From: Candidatus Coatesiibacteriota bacterium
Lineage (GTDB): Bacteria; RBG-13-66-14; B26-G2; JAUVZD01
Direction: 5' to 3'
Assembly: GCA_030602715.1 (NCBI GenBank)
Contig: JAUVZD010000002.1
Coordinates: forward strand, 1-64,000
DNA length: 64,000 bases
Each line of letters begins with the position of its first letter. Position 1 is the stretch's first letter. Made by a program: the position numbers and the translations under genes. Under the pieces are notes generated by a model. It was not told the origin of the DNA, searched no databases, and saw only the letters and a list, made by a program, of their open reading frames with translations. Shown piece by piece: positions 18,698 through 31,972 of this stretch.

Positions 18698-19372
18698 TTA
18701 AACCACCCGCTCCCCGGCTCTCTTGCCGGGGCTTTTGTCATAGACCTCACTTACATAAAAAACATAGGCTGCGGGAACCTTGCGGTCGGAGGGCTTATGA
18801 AACATATCGTGAGCCGCCATCTCAAAACGGTAATAGGGGCTTTTGGGCTTCACAATCTCAGTCACGCAGTTGACCATATATGAAAGGACTCCGCTCTCCA
18901 AGTCCACATACAACAGGCTTGCTCGGGGGTCCTGCTGAATATTCTCATAGGTCCGCTTGCCATAAATCTCCAAAGAACCTAGTTTGTATAAATCCAGCTC
19001 ATCCTCACTGGAGTAAAACTCCATCAATGCTTTAAGCCTTTCGGGAAGAGTCGCCTCCCAATCCCCGGCCATACCTTCCTCTATCATCTTCTCAAAGGCG
19101 GAGGTCCTCTCCTCCAGCAGGTCCTCTCTGGGGAGCAAGCCCACCCCCTTTGCCGCTGAGCTGACCGGAAAGGGATGATAGCTTCCTCTGGTGGTCATCA
19201 CCGGTAGATGGGGACCGAAGCCCCCCGGACCAACACCTTCAAGCATCCGCTCAAGCGACTTAATGCGCGCGGAACACTGCCAGTGGATGAAGCTCTCGGG
19301 CAGGGGGCGCAGGGGAATTTCTATACTTTCGCCCTCAACATTTATGGTGATGTTATCCACCGCTCTCTCCAA
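18698..19372 (-). CDS. Unrecognised soluble protein
   Basis: 224 residues, no signal peptide, no membrane segment. I do not recognise a family. It has a short beta-rich start (NITINVEGESIEIPLRPLP), a histidine/proline stretch (GGFGPHLPVMTTRGSYHPFP) and an acidic helix-rich middle. The first possible start is a TTG at 19372; a GTG four codons later is also possible. A TATAAT box at 19390-19395 on the same strand lies about 18 bases upstream, implying a very short leader. GC and codon use match core genes. Confidence 0.55.
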   Translation of the reverse strand: MERAVDNITINVEGESIEIPLRPLPESFIHWQCSARIKSLERMLEGVGPGGFGPHLPVMTTRGSYHPFPVSSAAKGVGLLPREDLLEERTSAFEKMIEEGMAGDWEATLPERLKALMEFYSSEDELDLYKLGSLEIYGKRTYENIQQDPRASLLYVDLESGVLSYMVNCVTEIVKPKSPYYRFEMAAHDMFHKPSDRKVPAAYVFYVSEVYDKSPGKRAGERVV

Positions 19373-19438
19373 CGGGGAAAAGGTATTTTATTATAGCCGA
19401 TTCTTGTGAGAAATTCCAGCATAAAATAAGACCTTCTG

Positions 19439-19465
19439 CCCCGCCCCGCTTGTAGCGGGGCGGGG
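19439..19465. terminator. Long GC-rich hairpin downstream of the DUF6754 cluster
   Basis: Perfect 11-base arms (CCCCGCCCCGC / GCGGGGCGGGG) with a TTGTA loop, 36 bases beyond the last gene of the membrane cluster and upstream of the 224-residue gene. No T-run directly follows on the minus strand. It belongs to a set of similar intergenic CCCCGCC-GGCGGGG hairpins in this window. Confidence 0.55.
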
Positions 19466-19500
19466 AAAAAGGTTAATGCCTAAAGACCAAAATCAACGCC

Positions 19501-20136
19501 TCACTTCAATATATTAAGCCAATCGTGCAATAGAAAATAGAGCCGCTCATACAGTAGCGACATCCGGCTCATCACCACCGCGCCGAAACGCGCCCCCAGA
19601 GTTATCATAATGAAATAGCGCCCCACCCTGGCCGTCCCGCCGATTATTCCGGTGTGGCGTTTGGTCATGAAGAAATAGGTCAGGGTGCAGATGGTGCCAG
19701 CGATGATGATGGCGTTGTTGACATCCAGGAAGGTGAAGGAGCCCCAGGGGGAGGAGTAACTGGTGACCAGTGGAAGAACTGTGGCCGCTACCTGTTGACG
19801 GATGGAGGCGTCCAAGGCGCCGATGATGCCCACCGCTCCGGATATGCCGAAGAAGAAGGAGAGGGGGATGCGGGTGAGCCAGGCGAACCGCTTGGAGAAG
19901 CGCATATAGAAGAGGGCGCCGATGATGATGGGGACGATGTTTAAGAGGCGCCCGTCATAGAGCAAAGGCTTTATGCCGGTGTTTACCACATTATAATAGT
20001 TGATGACCACCAGATGCCCGGCGGTAAAGCCGATGAGAATGTGCTCGGCAAGGCGAAAGGCGGGGTTCTGCTTCCACAGTAGGCTCCCTATCGCCAGGGT
20101 CAAAAGTGCAGCTATCCATACCCCCACCAGAGTCAT
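19501..20136 (-). CDS. Polytopic membrane protein, last gene of DUF6754-associated cluster
   Basis: 211 residues with about six hydrophobic helices and almost no soluble part. Characteristic stretches are NPAFRLAEHILIGFTAGHLV and a helix ending YMRFSKRFAWLTRIPLSFFFG. No named family recognised. Its ATG lies one base after the stop of the preceding 274-residue gene, so the two are translationally close. The protein probably forms the membrane part of a complex with the other three membrane proteins of the cluster. Confidence 0.65.
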   Translation of the reverse strand: MTLVGVWIAALLTLAIGSLLWKQNPAFRLAEHILIGFTAGHLVVINYYNVVNTGIKPLLYDGRLLNIVPIIIGALFYMRFSKRFAWLTRIPLSFFFGISGAVGIIGALDASIRQQVAATVLPLVTSYSSPWGSFTFLDVNNAIIIAGTICTLTYFFMTKRHTGIIGGTARVGRYFIMITLGARFGAVVMSRMSLLYERLYFLLHDWLNILK

Positions 20137-20137
20137 T

Positions 20138-20962
20138 TTAGCCCACCACCCGTCCCTTCTTGCGCCGGGCGATTATCAAGGCTACTACATTACCGGCGAT
20201 GATGAGTGCCATTACCAATACCTGCCCCACCGACTGGGCATCCATCCCCCGCTTGCCCAGCCCTTCCATCCCCATAAGCTCCTCATACTCCGCCGCCCCC
20301 TTCAAACCCACCACCGCACCGTCCACCTGCCCGGATTGAAGATAGGGCTCAAGCGGTGGGAAGCTTGCCGCATTGATCGACGCCAGCACCTTAATCTGCG
20401 GGTTCTGGGTTTTGACCTGTTCCAGATATATAATCGGTCCGCTCTCCCGGTCGGCGAAGTCCACTATCATAGGTATATCCAGTATCCCCCCTGCTTCATC
20501 CATTATGGGCAGTTCATCAAGGGGGGTACCGGAGAAATCTCGCACAAACGCTCCCCGAAAGTCATGAGAGATGAGCCTGATCATAGTATGCACCCCGGGT
20601 GCGTATCCCAGGTTGACATAATCCACGCCGTAAGTGCGCCCCAGTTCATCGCCTATGCGCCGCAGGAAGACATCCATCACCATCGGTCCCTGGTCCCACA
20701 TGGAGATGGAGATGATTCGCAGGTCTCTGTCCGGCTCCATCAGATGGCGCAGAATGGCTTCCATCTGAGGGAGTATTTCGGCACGGTTCTCCACATCAAA
20801 GTCGGCGCCGACCAGAACCAAACTGCCCGCGGGAAGCTCATCAATTGCCCGATAAAAGGAGAGTGTGGATTCCTCTATGGAATACTCCATCCCCGGCGCC
20901 CAGATGAGCAGGGCGACCATCACTGTGCCCAATATGAGGAAGATTATGTGCTGGGGCTGCAT
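20138..20962 (-). CDS. Membrane-anchored protein with soluble domain, DUF6754-associated
   Basis: 274 residues: an N-terminal helix (residues 7-23), a large soluble domain (about 30-240) and a C-terminal helix (VLVMALIIAGNVVALII) ending in basic residues. The soluble part holds LPAGSLVLVGADFDVENRAE, GVDYVNLGYAPGVHTMIRLI and VDGAVVGLKGAAEYEELMG, suggesting an alternating alpha/beta fold outside the membrane. No enzyme motif recognised. It is directly coupled to the 211-residue membrane gene and resembles in layout the DUF6754 protein of the same cluster. Confidence 0.6.
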   Translation of the reverse strand: MQPQHIIFLILGTVMVALLIWAPGMEYSIEESTLSFYRAIDELPAGSLVLVGADFDVENRAEILPQMEAILRHLMEPDRDLRIISISMWDQGPMVMDVFLRRIGDELGRTYGVDYVNLGYAPGVHTMIRLISHDFRGAFVRDFSGTPLDELPIMDEAGGILDIPMIVDFADRESGPIIYLEQVKTQNPQIKVLASINAASFPPLEPYLQSGQVDGAVVGLKGAAEYEELMGMEGLGKRGMDAQSVGQVLVMALIIAGNVVALIIARRKKGRVVG

Positions 20963-21009
20963 TGTCGTTTATCGTGTGCTGCTTTTTGCAGAATAAGTAA
21001 ATCCAATCC

Positions 21010-21039
21010 CCCACCCCGCCGTTCATTCGGCGGGGTGGG
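21010..21039. terminator. GC-rich hairpin within the DUF6754 cluster
   Basis: Perfect 12-base arms CCCACCCCGCCG / CGGCGGGGTGGG with a TTCATT loop. It lies downstream (minus strand) of the 191-residue secreted gene and upstream of the 274-residue gene, so it could split the cluster into two transcripts or act as an attenuator/processing site. No clear T-run. Confidence 0.5.
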
Positions 21040-21056
21040 TATGGAATACCTGGTAA

Positions 21057-21632
21057 TTAATATACCAGAGCGCTTGCCGCCACAGCTACCTTGCCGGATT
21101 CTTCAACAATTCCCGGAGCCTCGGAAACGATGGTCTCCAGATTGGTCTGACCCTCGCTCAGCCGGTCCTTAAGACCGGTCAACTTGGTTGCACCCAGGGG
21201 ATTATCGGTTATCGCCTGGACCAGGTCGGAGATGGCAGTGGGTATCTTAGGAACAAGCCCGATCGCTTCCTCTAAGCAAATCTGCAAGTTCTCAGGAAGT
21301 CTCTGCACCAATGTTACTACATCCTTCACCACATCCATGTGTTCTTGGGTCATTTCTACCGCTTCTCTGGCTTCCTTCAGACTATCAACATCCTCGTAGA
21401 TGTTGGTGAAGCCATAGACATCGCTCACCGTCGCCAGAGCTTCCTTCGCCCGCAACAGGTCTTCGTGATACAGGGTGTACATATCAGCCACGCTCTGGAT
21501 CTCCCCCAGAAGAGTGTCTATGGACGAGGTGTCAAACTCCTCCCCTCCGCCGGTGACATCCCCCAGTCCGTAGCCGAAGACGGCTACCGGTATCAGGGCG
21601 ACTGCAATGGTTACAAGAATTGCACTTCTCAT
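21057..21632 (-). CDS. Secreted helical protein of unknown function
   Basis: 191 residues with a signal peptide (MRSAILVTIAVALIPVAVFG). The mature part is predicted mainly helical with heptad-like spacing (MYTLYHEDLLRAKEALATVS, KEAREAVEMTQEHMDVVKDV, LKDRLSEGQTNLETIVSEAP), so an extended coiled coil is likely. AAGGAGG precedes the ATG. It stands inside the DUF6754 cluster and is transcribed with it, although hairpins and a 100-base gap separate it from the neighbours. A periplasmic partner of the membrane proteins is plausible but unproven. Confidence 0.6.
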   Translation of the reverse strand: MRSAILVTIAVALIPVAVFGYGLGDVTGGGEEFDTSSIDTLLGEIQSVADMYTLYHEDLLRAKEALATVSDVYGFTNIYEDVDSLKEAREAVEMTQEHMDVVKDVVTLVQRLPENLQICLEEAIGLVPKIPTAISDLVQAITDNPLGATKLTGLKDRLSEGQTNLETIVSEAPGIVEESGKVAVAASALVY

Positions 21633-21732
21633 CTCTTTCCCTCCTTAAGGGTTGGTTAATTGGCTATATAATCTATTGTAGCTGTATCTCTCTACAAGTC
21701 TTACTTAGTTCCTTTTCTCGTCTCCTCCAACA

Positions 21733-22353
21733 CTACCCCACAAAATGTCCTCGCTCTATGCCCAATATCACCCTTAAGAACACCGCTATCCCCCCCAGAC
21801 TAGCCCCCAGAAGTATCCCCCGGCTTCCCCCCACATTGGGCACATCCATTATCCAGGCACCTATCACCGGTATCCCGGACCAGATCTCCGTCCCGATGGC
21901 TGAGCGCCCCAGTATGACCAGAAAGGCGGCTCCCACCAGCACCCCGGCCTCCAGACTGCGAATGCGGAAGGCTCGGAAGGATGCCGAGGCGATGAAGAAC
22001 GCCAGCAAACTCACCATAGTGGTGGTCAGGGGGGTGAAGACCCAGTCAAATAGCCAGCGATATATGACGTGCGTGGGCGAGAAGGCGATACCGATCACGA
22101 TGGTGCCGAACATCACCACCAACAGGGCCAGGCTGTTCCACCACTCCTTCCTTCTGCGCAAAAAATCCCGACCGTGGATCTGGGTTAGGTTGACCGCACC
22201 CAGTCCCGCCGCCACCCCGCCGATTATGACCATCCACTTCATCCCCACGCCCATAAACATCACCAGGGGACCGAAGCCGCTGAAAGCCCCGACGAAGATG
22301 ATGCCGGCGATGGTGGCGGTGATGATTATGGGTATCAGTCGGCGCGTGCCCAT
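21733..22353 (-). CDS. Polytopic membrane protein, DUF6754-associated
   Basis: 206 residues with about six hydrophobic helices. Distinctive motifs: FSGFGPLVMFMGVGMKWMVI and GLGAVNLTQIHGRDFLRRRK (a basic loop after the second helix), then SPTHVIYRWLFDWVFTPL. The protein is nearly all membrane. Its ATG is five bases after the start of the upstream stop codon, with GAGGTGA overlapping that stop as the ribosome-binding site, so translation is coupled to the DUF6754-like gene. No named family recognised. Confidence 0.65.
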   Translation of the reverse strand: MGTRRLIPIIITATIAGIIFVGAFSGFGPLVMFMGVGMKWMVIIGGVAAGLGAVNLTQIHGRDFLRRRKEWWNSLALLVVMFGTIVIGIAFSPTHVIYRWLFDWVFTPLTTTMVSLLAFFIASASFRAFRIRSLEAGVLVGAAFLVILGRSAIGTEIWSGIPVIGAWIMDVPNVGGSRGILLGASLGGIAVFLRVILGIERGHFVG

Positions 22354-22357
22354 AGCA

Positions 22358-23122
22358 TCACCTCATAAACCATTCAAAAAGCTGGTTGGCACCGAAAAAC
22401 CCCAGAACGGTGAACAGCAGTATCAGCGCAATCAAGATTATGCGCATCACATCCTGCCCGGCCAGGTTACCCCGGGTGGTGGGGTCATCGGAAAGATATG
22501 CCCCGGCCCCGAATATCTCCTCCCCGATCAGAGTGTAATCACAGCAGACGAAATAGAAGGGCAACTGCTGAAGGTCGTCGGTTCCGGCAATCTGCATTGG
22601 ACCGAGCATGCGCCCCCCCTCGGCAAGGAGGAGGGTCGCCGCCCCGAAGGTGCCGACCATGATGTTTGCCGCCGCCCGCTCGCTCTCTATGGTCTCCAGC
22701 GCCCCGGCCACATAGGGGAAGGGGTCCTTGGCGATGAAGCGCACCATCTCCTCCCGGAAGGCGTCCGGGTGGATGGAGCGGGAATAGGCGTTGCGCAGAA
22801 TCTCCTCGGTGGCTAGATGAACGGTGACCACGCTGTTGGTGATTATGGGGCTCGCCCCCATCTCGGCGCATTTCTCGGCTATGTATCTCAATATGGCGAA
22901 GGCGGCGAAGGTGTCCGGGTAGAAGCGGGACATTCCCAGGGTGAAATGCACCGGACGCCCCATCTCCGTCGCCCGACCTATGGCTTCGTCTATGGCCGAG
23001 AGACCGGCTATGGGGCGGATGGCAAACTGCGCCCCCCGACGGGCGCGAATAATGTAAAAGAGATATACCCCCACGATGAGCAGGAAGAGGATGAACAGGG
23101 GCAGGGAGGGGGAGCCGAACAT
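22358..23122 (-). CDS. DUF6754-like membrane protein, first gene of the cluster
   Basis: 254 residues from the ATG at 23122, which has GAGG well placed; a TTG at 23152 is possible but lacks a site. An N-terminal helix is followed by a soluble domain opening with IRPIAGLSAIDEAIGRATEM then GRPVHFTLG, the hallmark of DUF6754, and continuing through YIAEKCAEMGASPIITN and AEGGRMLGPMQIAGTDDLQQ, then a C-terminal helix. The family is widespread in uncultured bacteria and has no known function. It heads a five-gene minus-strand cluster of mostly membrane proteins. Confidence 0.75.
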   Translation of the reverse strand: MFGSPSLPLFILFLLIVGVYLFYIIRARRGAQFAIRPIAGLSAIDEAIGRATEMGRPVHFTLGMSRFYPDTFAAFAILRYIAEKCAEMGASPIITNSVVTVHLATEEILRNAYSRSIHPDAFREEMVRFIAKDPFPYVAGALETIESERAAANIMVGTFGAATLLLAEGGRMLGPMQIAGTDDLQQLPFYFVCCDYTLIGEEIFGAGAYLSDDPTTRGNLAGQDVMRIILIALILLFTVLGFFGANQLFEWFMR

Positions 23123-23219
23123 CAAAACCTCACTTCCGGTGATTAATCCCAAGTTTACAAAAGCGGTCTGGCGTTGTCAATATGGAAATAAGAGAAGGGT
23201 GAGATGAATACAGAAGGCA

Positions 23220-23308: not shown

Positions 23309-23968
23309 CTAAGATGATTCTTTCTTTTTATCTCTATCTTTAATGGCATCTTTTTTGGTTTGGGGGAGTTTTTTATAGAGGTCATCAATCTTTTTAGGTT
23401 GGGAAATCATAGTTTCTGATATTAGATTAACTAAGTGGAATAATTGTGTTGCGATATCTATATCGTCTTTAATATCCATTTGTCCTGGATGAACTGCTTC
23501 GTTGCCTATAACTCTTACAATGTCGAGAGCCTGTTGTATTTTAACTGGTAATCCTTTTTCCACTAGGTTGCTAATAGCTATGTTTAAATTTTTGTTCGGC
23601 TCACCTAATTGTATGCAAAGTTTCTGAATACATAATCTCAATAACGCAGTAGCGCCACGAAGAGATTTTTGAACGATTGACCTTGCTTCATTGTAATCAC
23701 GTTTTATGTCTTCATTGAGGTCTTCATTAGGTGGAGCAATAACTAGTGATTCTGGAAAAATCAAAGATTCGCCACGCCATAATTGGTATTGTTTGCATCT
23801 CTTACATTGAACAGTTTTTAACCAAGGCAGCTCAATATAACCATCTACATCATCATTGGTTATGAACGAATCAAAAGAAATTTGGTGTGCAAATACATCG
23901 CAGTATGGACAGTTATAGGCGTCCCTATTAATTGATGGTGCAGTATAGGGGGGTAGATTGTTTGACAT
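23309..23968 (-). CDS. DUF4145 family protein with N-terminal zinc ribbon
   Basis: 219 residues. The N-terminus carries CPYC (about 19-22) and CKRC (about 55-58), a likely zinc site. The C-terminal two thirds match DUF4145 (PF13643): ALLRLCIQKLCIQLGEPNKN, LVEKGLPVKIQQALDIVRVI, GNEAVHPGQMDIKDD, then KIDDLYKKLPQTKKDAIKDRD. DUF4145 proteins often lie near restriction or other defence genes, as here where a restriction-modification gene diverges from it. AGGAGG precedes the ATG. AT-rich, part of an acquired island. Biochemical role unknown. Confidence 0.85.
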   Translation of the reverse strand: MSNNLPPYTAPSINRDAYNCPYCDVFAHQISFDSFITNDDVDGYIELPWLKTVQCKRCKQYQLWRGESLIFPESLVIAPPNEDLNEDIKRDYNEARSIVQKSLRGATALLRLCIQKLCIQLGEPNKNLNIAISNLVEKGLPVKIQQALDIVRVIGNEAVHPGQMDIKDDIDIATQLFHLVNLISETMISQPKKIDDLYKKLPQTKKDAIKDRDKKKESS

Positions 23969-24273: not shown

Positions 24274-26721
24274 ATGCCCTCTAAAATGAAATCTCGTTCT
24301 TCGGAGTTTACTTCCTATTCTTGGATAAAGAAAGAGTTATCACAATTAGGTTGGATTGCAAAAAACCCGAACAGAAACCCGAATGGGCAAGTTTACACTC
24401 AGCAAGAATGCTTGGACGATGTTCGCATAAAGGAATGTCTTGGGAGAAAGCGTCCTGAGTTTGTAGTGAAATTATCTGAGGATAAATTTTGGATAATTGA
24501 AGCAAAGGGCAAGCCGAGTATGATAGAAAAGGCTTTTTCAGAAGCTATTGAATATGCAGATTTGATAAACAATAGTGATATTATCAGTGTCCCTCTTGTT
24601 TCGGGTGTAGCTGGTAACGATGATGATGGGTATATTGTAAGAAGCGCTTTTTTAGAAGATGATGAGTTTAGGCCTGTGAATTTTAATAGTCGTGAGATAA
24701 CAGGTTTATTATCTGTTGATTTGGTAAAATCATTATTAGAAAAGGGGTCTTCGACATTAGATGACTTAGAGATAGACGAATTACAACTCCTAAACATTGC
24801 TGACCAAATCAATGAGATTTTCCATAGGGGTTCGGTACAGAAGGATGAGAGGGCAACTGTTTTATCTACATTGCTTTTATCATTGATTGACAATACTGAG
24901 CCAAACTATAATGCGAACCCAGTAGTTTTTGTGAATGATATAAACGCAAGAGCTGAAGATGTTTTGAAGAGAAATGGCAAAGGTGAGTTTTTTAGGCATA
25001 TAGAAATAAAGTTGCCAACTAAAAAAGATGCCCAAGAGAAATACAAAAAGTCTCTTGTCTCTGTTTTGTTTCTTTTAAAGAAAATAAATATTAAAGCTGC
25101 AATGGGTTCGGGAACAGATATTCTTGGAAAATTCTATGAAGTTTTTCTTAAATATGGTAATGGGGCAAAAGATATTGGGATAGTATTCACTCCTAGGCAT
25201 GTGACGAAGTTTGCTGCTGAGGTATTAGGAGTTAGCCACGATGACATTGTTTATGATCCTACCTGTGGAACTGGTGGGTTTTTAGTATCAGCGTATAATT
25301 TAGTGAGAAAAAATTCTACATCTGTTCAAACTAGGGATTTCGGGAGATACCGTGTTTTTGGTATAGAATTACAACCCCGTGTTGCTGCAATGGCTATTAT
25401 AAATATGATTTTCAGGGGAGATGGTAAGACGAATATTATTGATAATGATTGTTTGTCCCAGTGTTTATATATTGATTACGAAAAAAATCAGAAAACCGTG
25501 AAGTATTTTTCTTCAGAAAAAGATTCTCAAAGGGCAGTTACAAGGGTTTTAATGAATCCTCCATTTGCGTTAAAAGAAGAGGGTGAGCAAGAACATAAAT
25601 TTGTAAGCCATGCACTTAATCAAATGAATGACGGCGGTTTGTTATTTTCGATATTACCTTTTTCCGAACTTATTCAGGGAGGGGATGCTTTGGTTTGGCG
25701 TAGGGAGCAGTTATTGAAATTTAATACATTGTTAGCAGTGATTTCTTTTCCAGAGGATTTATTCTATGGTAGCACTGGTAAGCATGTGTGCGGTATTGTT
25801 GTGAAGAAGGGTCATCCCCATAATTTTGATAGAGATGTTCTCTGGGTGAAGATTTTTGACGATGGGTATAGGAAGAGAAAGAAAAAACGTATACCTGTTA
25901 ATATGGAATACAATGATTTGGCTGCATCATTTGAAATTGTGCGGAATTTCATTCAAAATAATGAAAGACCAAAGGTTTCAGTTCCTAGAAGGATAAAGGC
26001 TTGTCCAATATCGGATGATAGTGGTTTTGAGCTGGTTCCAGAAGTTTATCTTGAAGGCGGGGATTTTAAAGTTGAGCAAATACGGGAAAGTATTCAGAAG
26101 CAACTAAGGGGTATTTTAGCTTTTTTGTATGACCGTGGTATTTTTACTTTCGGTGATTTTAAGCCACCACAAGTTCAGGAGTTTGTACCAATATCGAATA
26201 AGTGGAAAAAGGTTAGATTAGATGAATTATTTGATTTTGTTAAAGGATATTCAGCTAGTTCTTTTGACTTGCATCCTTTGCAAGATGTTGATTCCAAACC
26301 TTTATTCAGACCTACATCTACTGTTCATAATCTTATTGCGGGATGGATTGAGAAGGAAGTTGTTGAGAAAAATATGGTGTATCCTCCTAGTTCATTATTA
26401 GTTTCTACAGATGGTGAAGGGAGTCATTCGTATTCTCATATAACTCCAATTGGATTTGTACCTAATTCTAATACTTCGGTATTATTACCAAAATATAAAG
26501 TGCCGTTATCGTTTTTATTGTTTATTTCTGTTGCAATAACAAATGAAAGATGGAGATTTTCATATGGACGTAAGCCGAAAAGCGGAAGACTTGAGAAAAT
26601 ATCTTTAACGGTTCCGATAAATGACGATGGGGATGTGGATTTTAAGGCGTTTGATAATCTTGTAGAGTCTATAGGGGAGTACAGTATTGTAAAAGTGTAT
26701 TTTGATAATGTTGAATCATAA
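24274..26721 (+). CDS. Single-chain restriction-modification enzyme: nuclease-like + N6-adenine methylase + specificity domain
   Basis: 815 residues. Residues about 10-130 contain a PD-(D/E)xK-like core: RPEFVVK with E62, then FWIIEAKGK with E76 and K78. Residues about 270-560 are a HsdM-type methylase with AdoMet motif DPTCGTGGF (328-336) and catalytic NPPF (428-431), so adenine N6 methylation is expected. From about 660 (KWKKVRLDELFDFVKG) a type I S-like target-recognition domain follows, only one copy. The order nuclease-methylase-recognition in one chain is that of type IIG/type I-like fused enzymes. No separate translocase gene is visible. AT-rich codon use contrasts with core genes, indicating transfer. 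Confidence 0.85.
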   Translation: MPSKMKSRSSEFTSYSWIKKELSQLGWIAKNPNRNPNGQVYTQQECLDDVRIKECLGRKRPEFVVKLSEDKFWIIEAKGKPSMIEKAFSEAIEYADLINNSDIISVPLVSGVAGNDDDGYIVRSAFLEDDEFRPVNFNSREITGLLSVDLVKSLLEKGSSTLDDLEIDELQLLNIADQINEIFHRGSVQKDERATVLSTLLLSLIDNTEPNYNANPVVFVNDINARAEDVLKRNGKGEFFRHIEIKLPTKKDAQEKYKKSLVSVLFLLKKINIKAAMGSGTDILGKFYEVFLKYGNGAKDIGIVFTPRHVTKFAAEVLGVSHDDIVYDPTCGTGGFLVSAYNLVRKNSTSVQTRDFGRYRVFGIELQPRVAAMAIINMIFRGDGKTNIIDNDCLSQCLYIDYEKNQKTVKYFSSEKDSQRAVTRVLMNPPFALKEEGEQEHKFVSHALNQMNDGGLLFSILPFSELIQGGDALVWRREQLLKFNTLLAVISFPEDLFYGSTGKHVCGIVVKKGHPHNFDRDVLWVKIFDDGYRKRKKKRIPVNMEYNDLAASFEIVRNFIQNNERPKVSVPRRIKACPISDDSGFELVPEVYLEGGDFKVEQIRESIQKQLRGILAFLYDRGIFTFGDFKPPQVQEFVPISNKWKKVRLDELFDFVKGYSASSFDLHPLQDVDSKPLFRPTSTVHNLIAGWIEKEVVEKNMVYPPSSLLVSTDGEGSHSYSHITPIGFVPNSNTSVLLPKYKVPLSFLLFISVAITNERWRFSYGRKPKSGRLEKISLTVPINDDGDVDFKAFDNLVESIGEYSIVKVYFDNVES

Positions 26722-31267: not shown

Positions 31268-31972
31268 CTAGAAAATCCCCCCCTTCATCACCGGCTTTCC
31301 GAAAACCAGCTCCTCCTCCAGTTCCACCTCTCCCCCCTCAACCTCACCTGTGCCCAACAACAATATCAGGTCATCGCCCTCGTCCCTGGTCTCCTCAAAG
31401 CGAGCCGGGTCAAAGTCAACCTTCCCGTCCACCCCGATGCTGTGAACATAATAATCCCCGTCGGGGATCTTGCCGTAGAGAAGCTGTTGTCCATAGATGT
31501 CCTCCAGGATATGGGGATCGTTTTTAGGAAGATAAGGTCCATACCAATCCTCCCCCTCTTCTCCCTGGGCAAAGGCACTCTCATCCGTAAGAAGGGCTAA
31601 ACCCTCCTCAGTTGTGGGGAAGCGACCGATGTCCTCCGAAAGCTCCATTAGTGCCTGCCCGACCCTGAACATACGAAGCTGGTTGGCACCGCCCAGAAGC
31701 CCACTCTCTCCCAGATTGCTCAGCCCATATACACCCAGGGAAACCGCCAAAAGGAGCATCACCCCCACCACCAGAAGCAAGTAGAGCAGTCCTTTGCCAC
31801 CCTCAAAGGCGGAGAGGGCGGGTTCCTTGACGATAGCCGGGGCGCAGTTTTCGCACAGACATTTTCCATCATAGAAGCGAATACAATCCGAACAGAGCAG
31901 TCGTCCACAGTTAGGACATTTGGCTTGGATGGGCTTCCCGTGAACGGGACAGTAGCTGTGTTCGGAGGTCAT
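31268..31972 (-). CDS. B-box-type zinc domain fused to GspG-like pseudopilin domain
   Basis: 234 residues. The N-terminal 45 residues form a double zinc site (YCPVHGKPIQAKCPNCGRLLC then SDCIRFYDGKCLCENC). A single membrane helix follows (about 60-85). Residues about 105-190 match the core of type II secretion pseudopilin GspG: ALMELSEDIGRFPTTEEGLA, WYGPYLPKNDPHILEDIYGQ and YYVHSIGVDGK. The normal GspG prepilin peptide is missing; the zinc box and inside-out helix replace it. It starts four bases after the upstream zinc box-Yip1 gene. Probably a membrane-anchored sensor or scaffold and not a pilus subunit. Confidence 0.7.
   Translation of the reverse strand: MTSEHSYCPVHGKPIQAKCPNCGRLLCSDCIRFYDGKCLCENCAPAIVKEPALSAFEGGKGLLYLLLVVGVMLLLAVSLGVYGLSNLGESGLLGGANQLRMFRVGQALMELSEDIGRFPTTEEGLALLTDESAFAQGEEGEDWYGPYLPKNDPHILEDIYGQQLLYGKIPDGDYYVHSIGVDGKVDFDPARFEETRDEGDDLILLLGTGEVEGGEVELEEELVFGKPVMKGGIF

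Follow-up and report, generated by a model that had tools for sequence, protein, structure and literature searches.

The window analysed here, the first 64,000 nucleotides (nt) of contig JAUVZD010000002.1 from a Candidatus Coatesiibacteriota bacterium (assembly GCA_030602715.1), contains a gene cluster built around a membrane protein with a DUF6754 domain. We give it close to, though somewhat short of, an even chance that this cluster makes up one of the membrane modules of a seven-protein, ATPase-linked system, hitherto undescribed, whose ATPase is shared between modules and which probably acts in transport. The module consists of four genes, termed F1 (the DUF6754 protein), F2, F0 and F3. 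By genome comparison, it is co-inherited with a cytosolic module, F7/F5/F6, which is encoded elsewhere in the genome and had no place in the original prediction of a five-gene envelope cluster. The co-inheritance is observed, and transport is what we infer by analogy; it is the most likely task, with about an even chance at best.

A scan of GTDB contigs with the DUF6754 protein as the sole query gave at least 572 relatives, from which 80 loci were kept. In 73 of these, F1, F2, F0 and F3 are all present in this order on one strand, the genes overlapping or nearly adjoining each other, and three of the other seven loci are cut by contig ends. About 14 named phyla are represented, archaea included: Bacillota, Zixibacteria, WOR-3, Stahlbacteria, Cloacimonadota, Planctomycetota (including anammox bacteria), Latescibacterota, Eisenbacteria, Poribacteria, Fermentibacterota, Bdellovibrionota, CSSED10-310, Bathyarchaeota and Methanomethylicota. 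The four proteins have correlated pairwise distance matrices (Spearman coefficients of 0.66–0.81). Taken at the level of sequence, these comparisons show that bacteria and archaea alike inherit the F1-F2-F0-F3 cassette as a unit. The earlier proposal of an uncharacterised envelope set that recurs in uncultured bacteria, which had been made to depend on the partners lying beside DUF6754 elsewhere, is borne out in this respect. A chance arrangement of unrelated membrane genes is refuted for F1, F2, F0 and F3 by the gene order in the 73 loci and by the co-occurrence statistics given below; it fits the secreted gene only, and as an account of the cluster we leave it hardly any probability.

The genome to which the window belongs has three DUF6754 genes, each followed by relatives of F2, F0 and F3, and DUF6754 is found in 13 of the 14 genomes of its phylum. 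One family of the phylum carries several F0 genes per cassette, up to four (L039:4263-9237, L041, L042 and L043). In most of these four loci, a GT87/PMT-like glycosyltransferase gene lies just upstream of F1.

In the window, the five open reading frames lie on the minus strand at the positions and in the order first described, and F1 is a full-length member of DUF6754 (Pfam PF20539, E 2.7e-73; score 246.7 bits, cut-off 27 bits; 11-255 of the 257 model positions), as had been proposed. The two tightly spaced gene pairs are F1-F2, with a gap of 4 nt, and F0-F3, with a gap of 1 nt (TAA-A-ATG). The window cassette has the composition and order of its relatives, apart from a gene for a secreted helical protein inserted between F2 and F0 and flanked on either side by spacers of about 100 nt. 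The original prediction had counted this protein as a member; the core, however, is F1, F2, F0 and F3, and the secreted protein is not conserved in the cassette. Its relatives in nine other genomes of the phylum (22–31% identity) lie on other contigs or hundreds of kilobases away from cassettes, for which reason we reject it as a core member, and a sister cassette (L034) lacks it.

L034, the one close relative, from the sister genome G001, shares with the window two further genes downstream of the cassette, F9 followed by F8, and within the phylum F9 is confined to these two genomes. Neither these satellites nor the position of the secreted gene as a non-member between its own spacers featured in the earlier description. 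Trees of F1, of F3 and of the concatenated proteins, the last under a mixture model, place the window cassette and L034 as a pair within a clade of Bacillota and archaeal cassettes without a fibronectin type III (FN3) domain (SH-aLRT 98–99), at a distance from the remaining cassettes encoded in their respective genomes. Since the branch leading to the pair is long, transfer and ancient paralogy could both account for its position. Judged by these phylogenies, the window holds a divergent representative of the Bacillota/archaeal type of cassette, and this copy comes with additional satellite proteins.

Many loci also encode F6, F7 and F5. F7 is a MutL/GlmL-like ATPase of the ASKHA fold (PF13941, E 4e-124) whose nucleotide-binding motifs (phosphate-1, phosphate-2 and adenosine) are all invariant; F5 displays a weak similarity to barrel-sandwich hybrid domains and has a weakly KOW/NusG-like tail, and F6 is a small protein. 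We surveyed 290 genomes of at least 85% completeness from 257 genera, among which DUF6754 occurs in 85, F5 in 81 and F7 in 77. F5 was found in 81 of the 85 genomes with DUF6754 and in none of the 205 others, and F7 in 75 of the 85 and in 2 of the 205 (Fisher P values, which ignore relatedness, of 1e-67 and 1e-55, respectively). A further 17 genomes, three of them archaeal and four with DUF6754 alone at the locus, all encode F5. The numbers of the two modules differ: the 85 genomes hold 163 cassettes, one to seven each and at least two in 41 genomes, vs one strong F5 per genome and 79 F7 matches in 77 genomes. In the window genome (G000), F5 lies at G000:C15:97747-98874 and F7 at G000:C10:188949-190745, outside the window, with F6 beside F7.

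Gene arrangements join the two modules more directly. In G203 (L138:5838-12450), a genome of 0.9 Mb that is 98% complete, F7-F5-F6-F1-F2-F0-F3 form one compact operon, and the retention of all seven genes in so small a genome suggests an important function. G093 has F6-F7-F5 followed by two cassettes, and G243 and G124 encode a paralogue of about 950–1015 residues in which an F7-like ATPase is fused to an F5-like barrel-sandwich region (L136:322-3171 and L137:2378-5425). Together with the co-occurrence, this is strong genomic evidence that the cassette and the F7/F5 module are functionally linked. The co-inheritance, the F7–F5 fusion and the operon structure point to linkage rather than prove contact, and any physical complex of F1, F2, F0 and F3 with F7, F5 and F6 is putative. 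Some further features of these loci may be recorded. The operon in L138 adjoins CdsA-like and diacylglycerol kinase-like genes, the fusion in L137 starts with a stretch resembling an XRE-type helix-turn-helix, and in the Bacillota loci L046, L050, L063 and L094, two GlmL-like F7 genes flank F5 and F6.

Hydropathy averaged over more than 100 homologues per family supports a six-helix F2 and F3 and a two-helix F0 and F1, in agreement with the helix counts proposed from the window alone. From the positive-inside rule, averaged in the same way, the F0 domain is predicted to lie outside, the DUF6754 domain of F1 inside and the N-terminus of F2 inside; the orientation of F3 is ambiguous. F1 also exists in a long form with an extracytoplasmic FN3 domain, which is absent from the window copy. 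AlphaFold models of F0 (pLDDT 89.6, good) and F1 (pLDDT 82, fair) both consist of a transmembrane helix, alternating helices and strands, and a second transmembrane helix, and Foldseek matched both to the RCK domain of MthK and to other Rossmann-like folds with low TM-scores. On these models, the soluble domains of F0 and F1 look Rossmann-like. As candidate paralogues, F1 and F0 agree in the order of their secondary structure elements, and profile comparison lends this no support; nor is there support for F2 and F3 as paralogues. Sequence conservation drops from the cytosolic ATPase outward to the external domains, from 64% in F7 through 55% in the cytoplasmic domain of F1, 50% in F5, 43–44% in F2 and F3 and 37% in F0 to 31% in FN3.

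These features can be combined into a model. F2 and F3, which may be channels or scaffolds as first suggested, are predicted to form a membrane core of roughly twelve helices. The Rossmann-like domain of F1 would face the cytoplasm and that of F0 the outside, where long-form F1 would also expose its FN3 domain. F1 would be the docking site of F7/F5, and F7, cycling in an ATP-dependent manner, would drive a conformational change via F2/F3 to F0. A single ATPase module could thereby serve several cassettes differing in external specificity, and the window copy would use the sole F7 and F5 of its genome, on contigs C10 and C15. Such a shared ATPase module with several cassettes recalls the logic of ECF transporters, which makes small-molecule transport the most likely task. 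The excess of 163 cassettes over about one F5 and F7 per genome, the outward drop in conservation and the multiple F0 genes all fit exchangeable modules. The fullest form of the model, in which one actin-fold ATPase module powers interchangeable cassettes as an ATP-driven membrane machine in about 30% of the sampled bacterial genomes and in some archaea, is tentative, and we hold it possible without thinking it likely. If true, it would stand apart from ABC, ECF, P-type and secondary systems as a transporter or membrane motor class of its own.

Several observations weigh against the transport model. The Foldseek matches are weak, their TM-scores normalised to query length not exceeding about 0.37; profile comparison detects no homology between F1 and F0, which limits the claim to a shared fold class; and profile searches gave no known transporter relative for F2 or F3. 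Bacillota genomes hold extra, more distant F5 paralogues, so that a single copy of F5 is not universal. Four genomes with DUF6754 lack F5, among them G069 (L142), a single-contig genome of 5 Mb with a complete F1-F2-F0-F3, in which F7 was not found either. Transport, ATP hydrolysis by F7 in this system and physical contacts between the proteins are themselves steps of interpretation. As to the substrate, the gene families M20, amidohydrolase and S58 head the tally of neighbours in 19 Bacillota loci, with six M20 genes seen in about 0.2 Mb of flanking DNA vs about 1.5 expected (background of about 7.4 per Mb, from 259 matches in 34.8 Mb of 14 of those Bacillota genomes). These neighbours hint at peptide or amide substrates; since the comparison was chosen post hoc and the genomes are rich in peptidases, peptide uptake stays a lead. 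A DUF4438 protein and peptidases of families S58 and M55 are encoded upstream of Bacillota cassettes (L050:4582-5460 and matching places in L046 and L094).

Comparison with described systems bears on what else the cluster could be. The closest relatives of F7 by Pfam domain and nucleotide-binding motifs are GlmL/MutL, accessory proteins of glutamate mutase, and GlmL-type proteins are thought to serve B12 mutases as chaperone or reactivase. F7, however, fails the NCBIfam equivalog cut-offs for the GlmL and ornithine types (GlmL, 228 vs 475 bits); it is co-inherited with membrane proteins, and no B12 mutase recurs beside it. The distant relationship could be accommodated by transmembrane signalling, with F0 sensing an external ligand and F1 relaying to F5/F7 as an ATP-dependent chaperone or reactivase for a cytosolic enzyme. 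Rossmann-like domains on either side of the membrane and the combination of a variable exterior with a conserved interior would suit such a relay. We nevertheless consider it quite improbable, given that F7 lies so far below the GlmL cut-off, that no cytosolic target enzyme recurs in the neighbourhoods and that two six-helix proteins exceed the needs of a receptor.

A second set of similarities is to the inner-membrane platforms of type IV pili and type II secretion (PilM-N-O, GspL-M), which likewise pair an actin-fold cytosolic protein with bitopic membrane proteins. The cluster could accordingly encode an envelope assembly or scaffolding platform, in which F7 acts as an FtsA/PilM-like partner, F0 and F1 as bitopic scaffolds, F2 and F3 as the platform, and the secreted, TPR and FN3 parts as envelope contacts. 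The ASKHA fold of F7, the bitopic proteins with their FN3 domain, and the TPR/FlgO-like satellite and secreted helical protein of the window copy are all consistent with this. On the other hand, the Pfam match of F7 is to MutL rather than to PilM or FtsA, F0 has a Rossmann-like fold, the system also occurs in Bacillota and archaea without a typical outer membrane, and pilus, pilin, secretin and septal genes do not recur among the neighbours. We therefore regard scaffolding as doubtful, if a little less so than signalling.

F5 raises the further possibility of an Rnf/Nqr-style energy-conserving or redox complex, with F5 as an RnfC_N/NqrA-like peripheral subunit alongside two six-helix membrane subunits. 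Its matches to RnfC_N and NQRA_N are weak (E 0.003–0.016) and lie below the Pfam cut-off (18.2 vs 25.6 bits), conserved cysteine clusters were not found in F1, F0, F2, F3 or F5, and F2 and F3 match no Rnf/Nqr model. This explanation appears very unlikely.

Returning to transport, the likeness to ECF transporters lies in one ATP-using module combined with several membrane modules per genome. The system described here differs in having no ABC ATPase, T or S component, with an ASKHA ATPase and different membrane families instead, and the Pfam matches of F0–F3 in this direction amount to weak TMD0_ABC hits in 3 of 23 F2 members. RCK/TrkA domains of potassium channels are among the best fold neighbours of F1 and F0 in the PDB, but with TM-scores of about 0.3–0.4 and no Pfam TrkA_N match, which sets the proteins outside RCK/Trk/Ktr systems and leaves only the Rossmann-like architecture in common. 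PADLOC assigned none of F1, F2, F0, F3, F5 and F7 to anti-phage defence.

The system thus matches no known kind, although what it does may prove familiar in kind. F1 clearly belongs to PF20539, but the Pfam entry gives a domain of unknown function with no partner, operon or system. No paper mentioning DUF6754 or PF20539 was found in a search that left subscription journals and preprints outside, and the literature on PF13941 and GlmL yielded nothing relevant. For F0, F2 and F3, nothing convincing was found in Pfam, NCBIfam, PADLOC or PDB profiles, and within the window, F2, the secreted protein, F0 and F3 had no family match in Pfam or NCBIfam. Despite the presence of DUF6754 in 85 of 290 genomes, three of the four membrane families are without Pfam model or PDB relative, and a widespread cellular machine appears to be undescribed. 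Tying an orphan domain to a set of partners, notably an ATPase, opens the system to purification, knockout and imaging.

Features of the cassette and its surroundings in the window are listed below.

Table 1. Genes and signals of the DUF6754 cassette and its satellites in the window
Feature	Position	Strand	Basis
F1, DUF6754 protein, 254 aa, short form without N-terminal FN3	22358-23122	-	PF20539 match, AlphaFold, topology
F2, protein with six transmembrane helices, 206 aa, N-terminus inside (predicted)	21733-22353	-	topology of homologues
Secreted helical protein, 191 aa, insertion between F2 and F0	21057-21632	-	
F0, bitopic protein, 274 aa; transmembrane helix, extracytoplasmic Rossmann-like domain, transmembrane helix; C-terminus inside (predicted)	20138-20962	-	AlphaFold, Foldseek, topology
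F3, protein with six transmembrane helices, 211 aa	19501-20136	-	
F9, satellite protein, 224 aa, weak PNPOx-like (split beta-barrel) match	18698-19372	-	
F8, secreted FlgO-like/TPR protein, 543 aa	16988-18619	-	
Sigma-70-like promoter TTGACA-17-TAAACT just upstream of F1, suggestive only	23152-23180	-	
GC-rich 12-bp hairpin without mismatches, between secreted gene and F0	21010-21039	not assigned	
20-bp GC-rich hairpin, 90% complementary, after F3, possible cassette terminator	19431-19473	not assigned	

F1 starts with the ATG at 23122, which is preceded by a Shine-Dalgarno-like GTGAGG. Promoter sites of the TTGACA type are not enriched over shuffled sequences (11 found vs 8.0 ± 3.3 expected), and no RNA families were found near the cluster. 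Directly upstream of the cassette lies a small defence island, comprising a PD-T7-4 homologue (DUF4145; PADLOC E 5e-82) at 23309-23968 on the minus strand and, at 24274-26721 on the plus strand, a type IIG-like restriction-methyltransferase that carries N6_Mtase and specificity domains. Farther along the window, a minus-strand gene at 31268-31972 combines an N-terminal B-box-type zinc finger with a C-terminus resembling type II secretion protein G.

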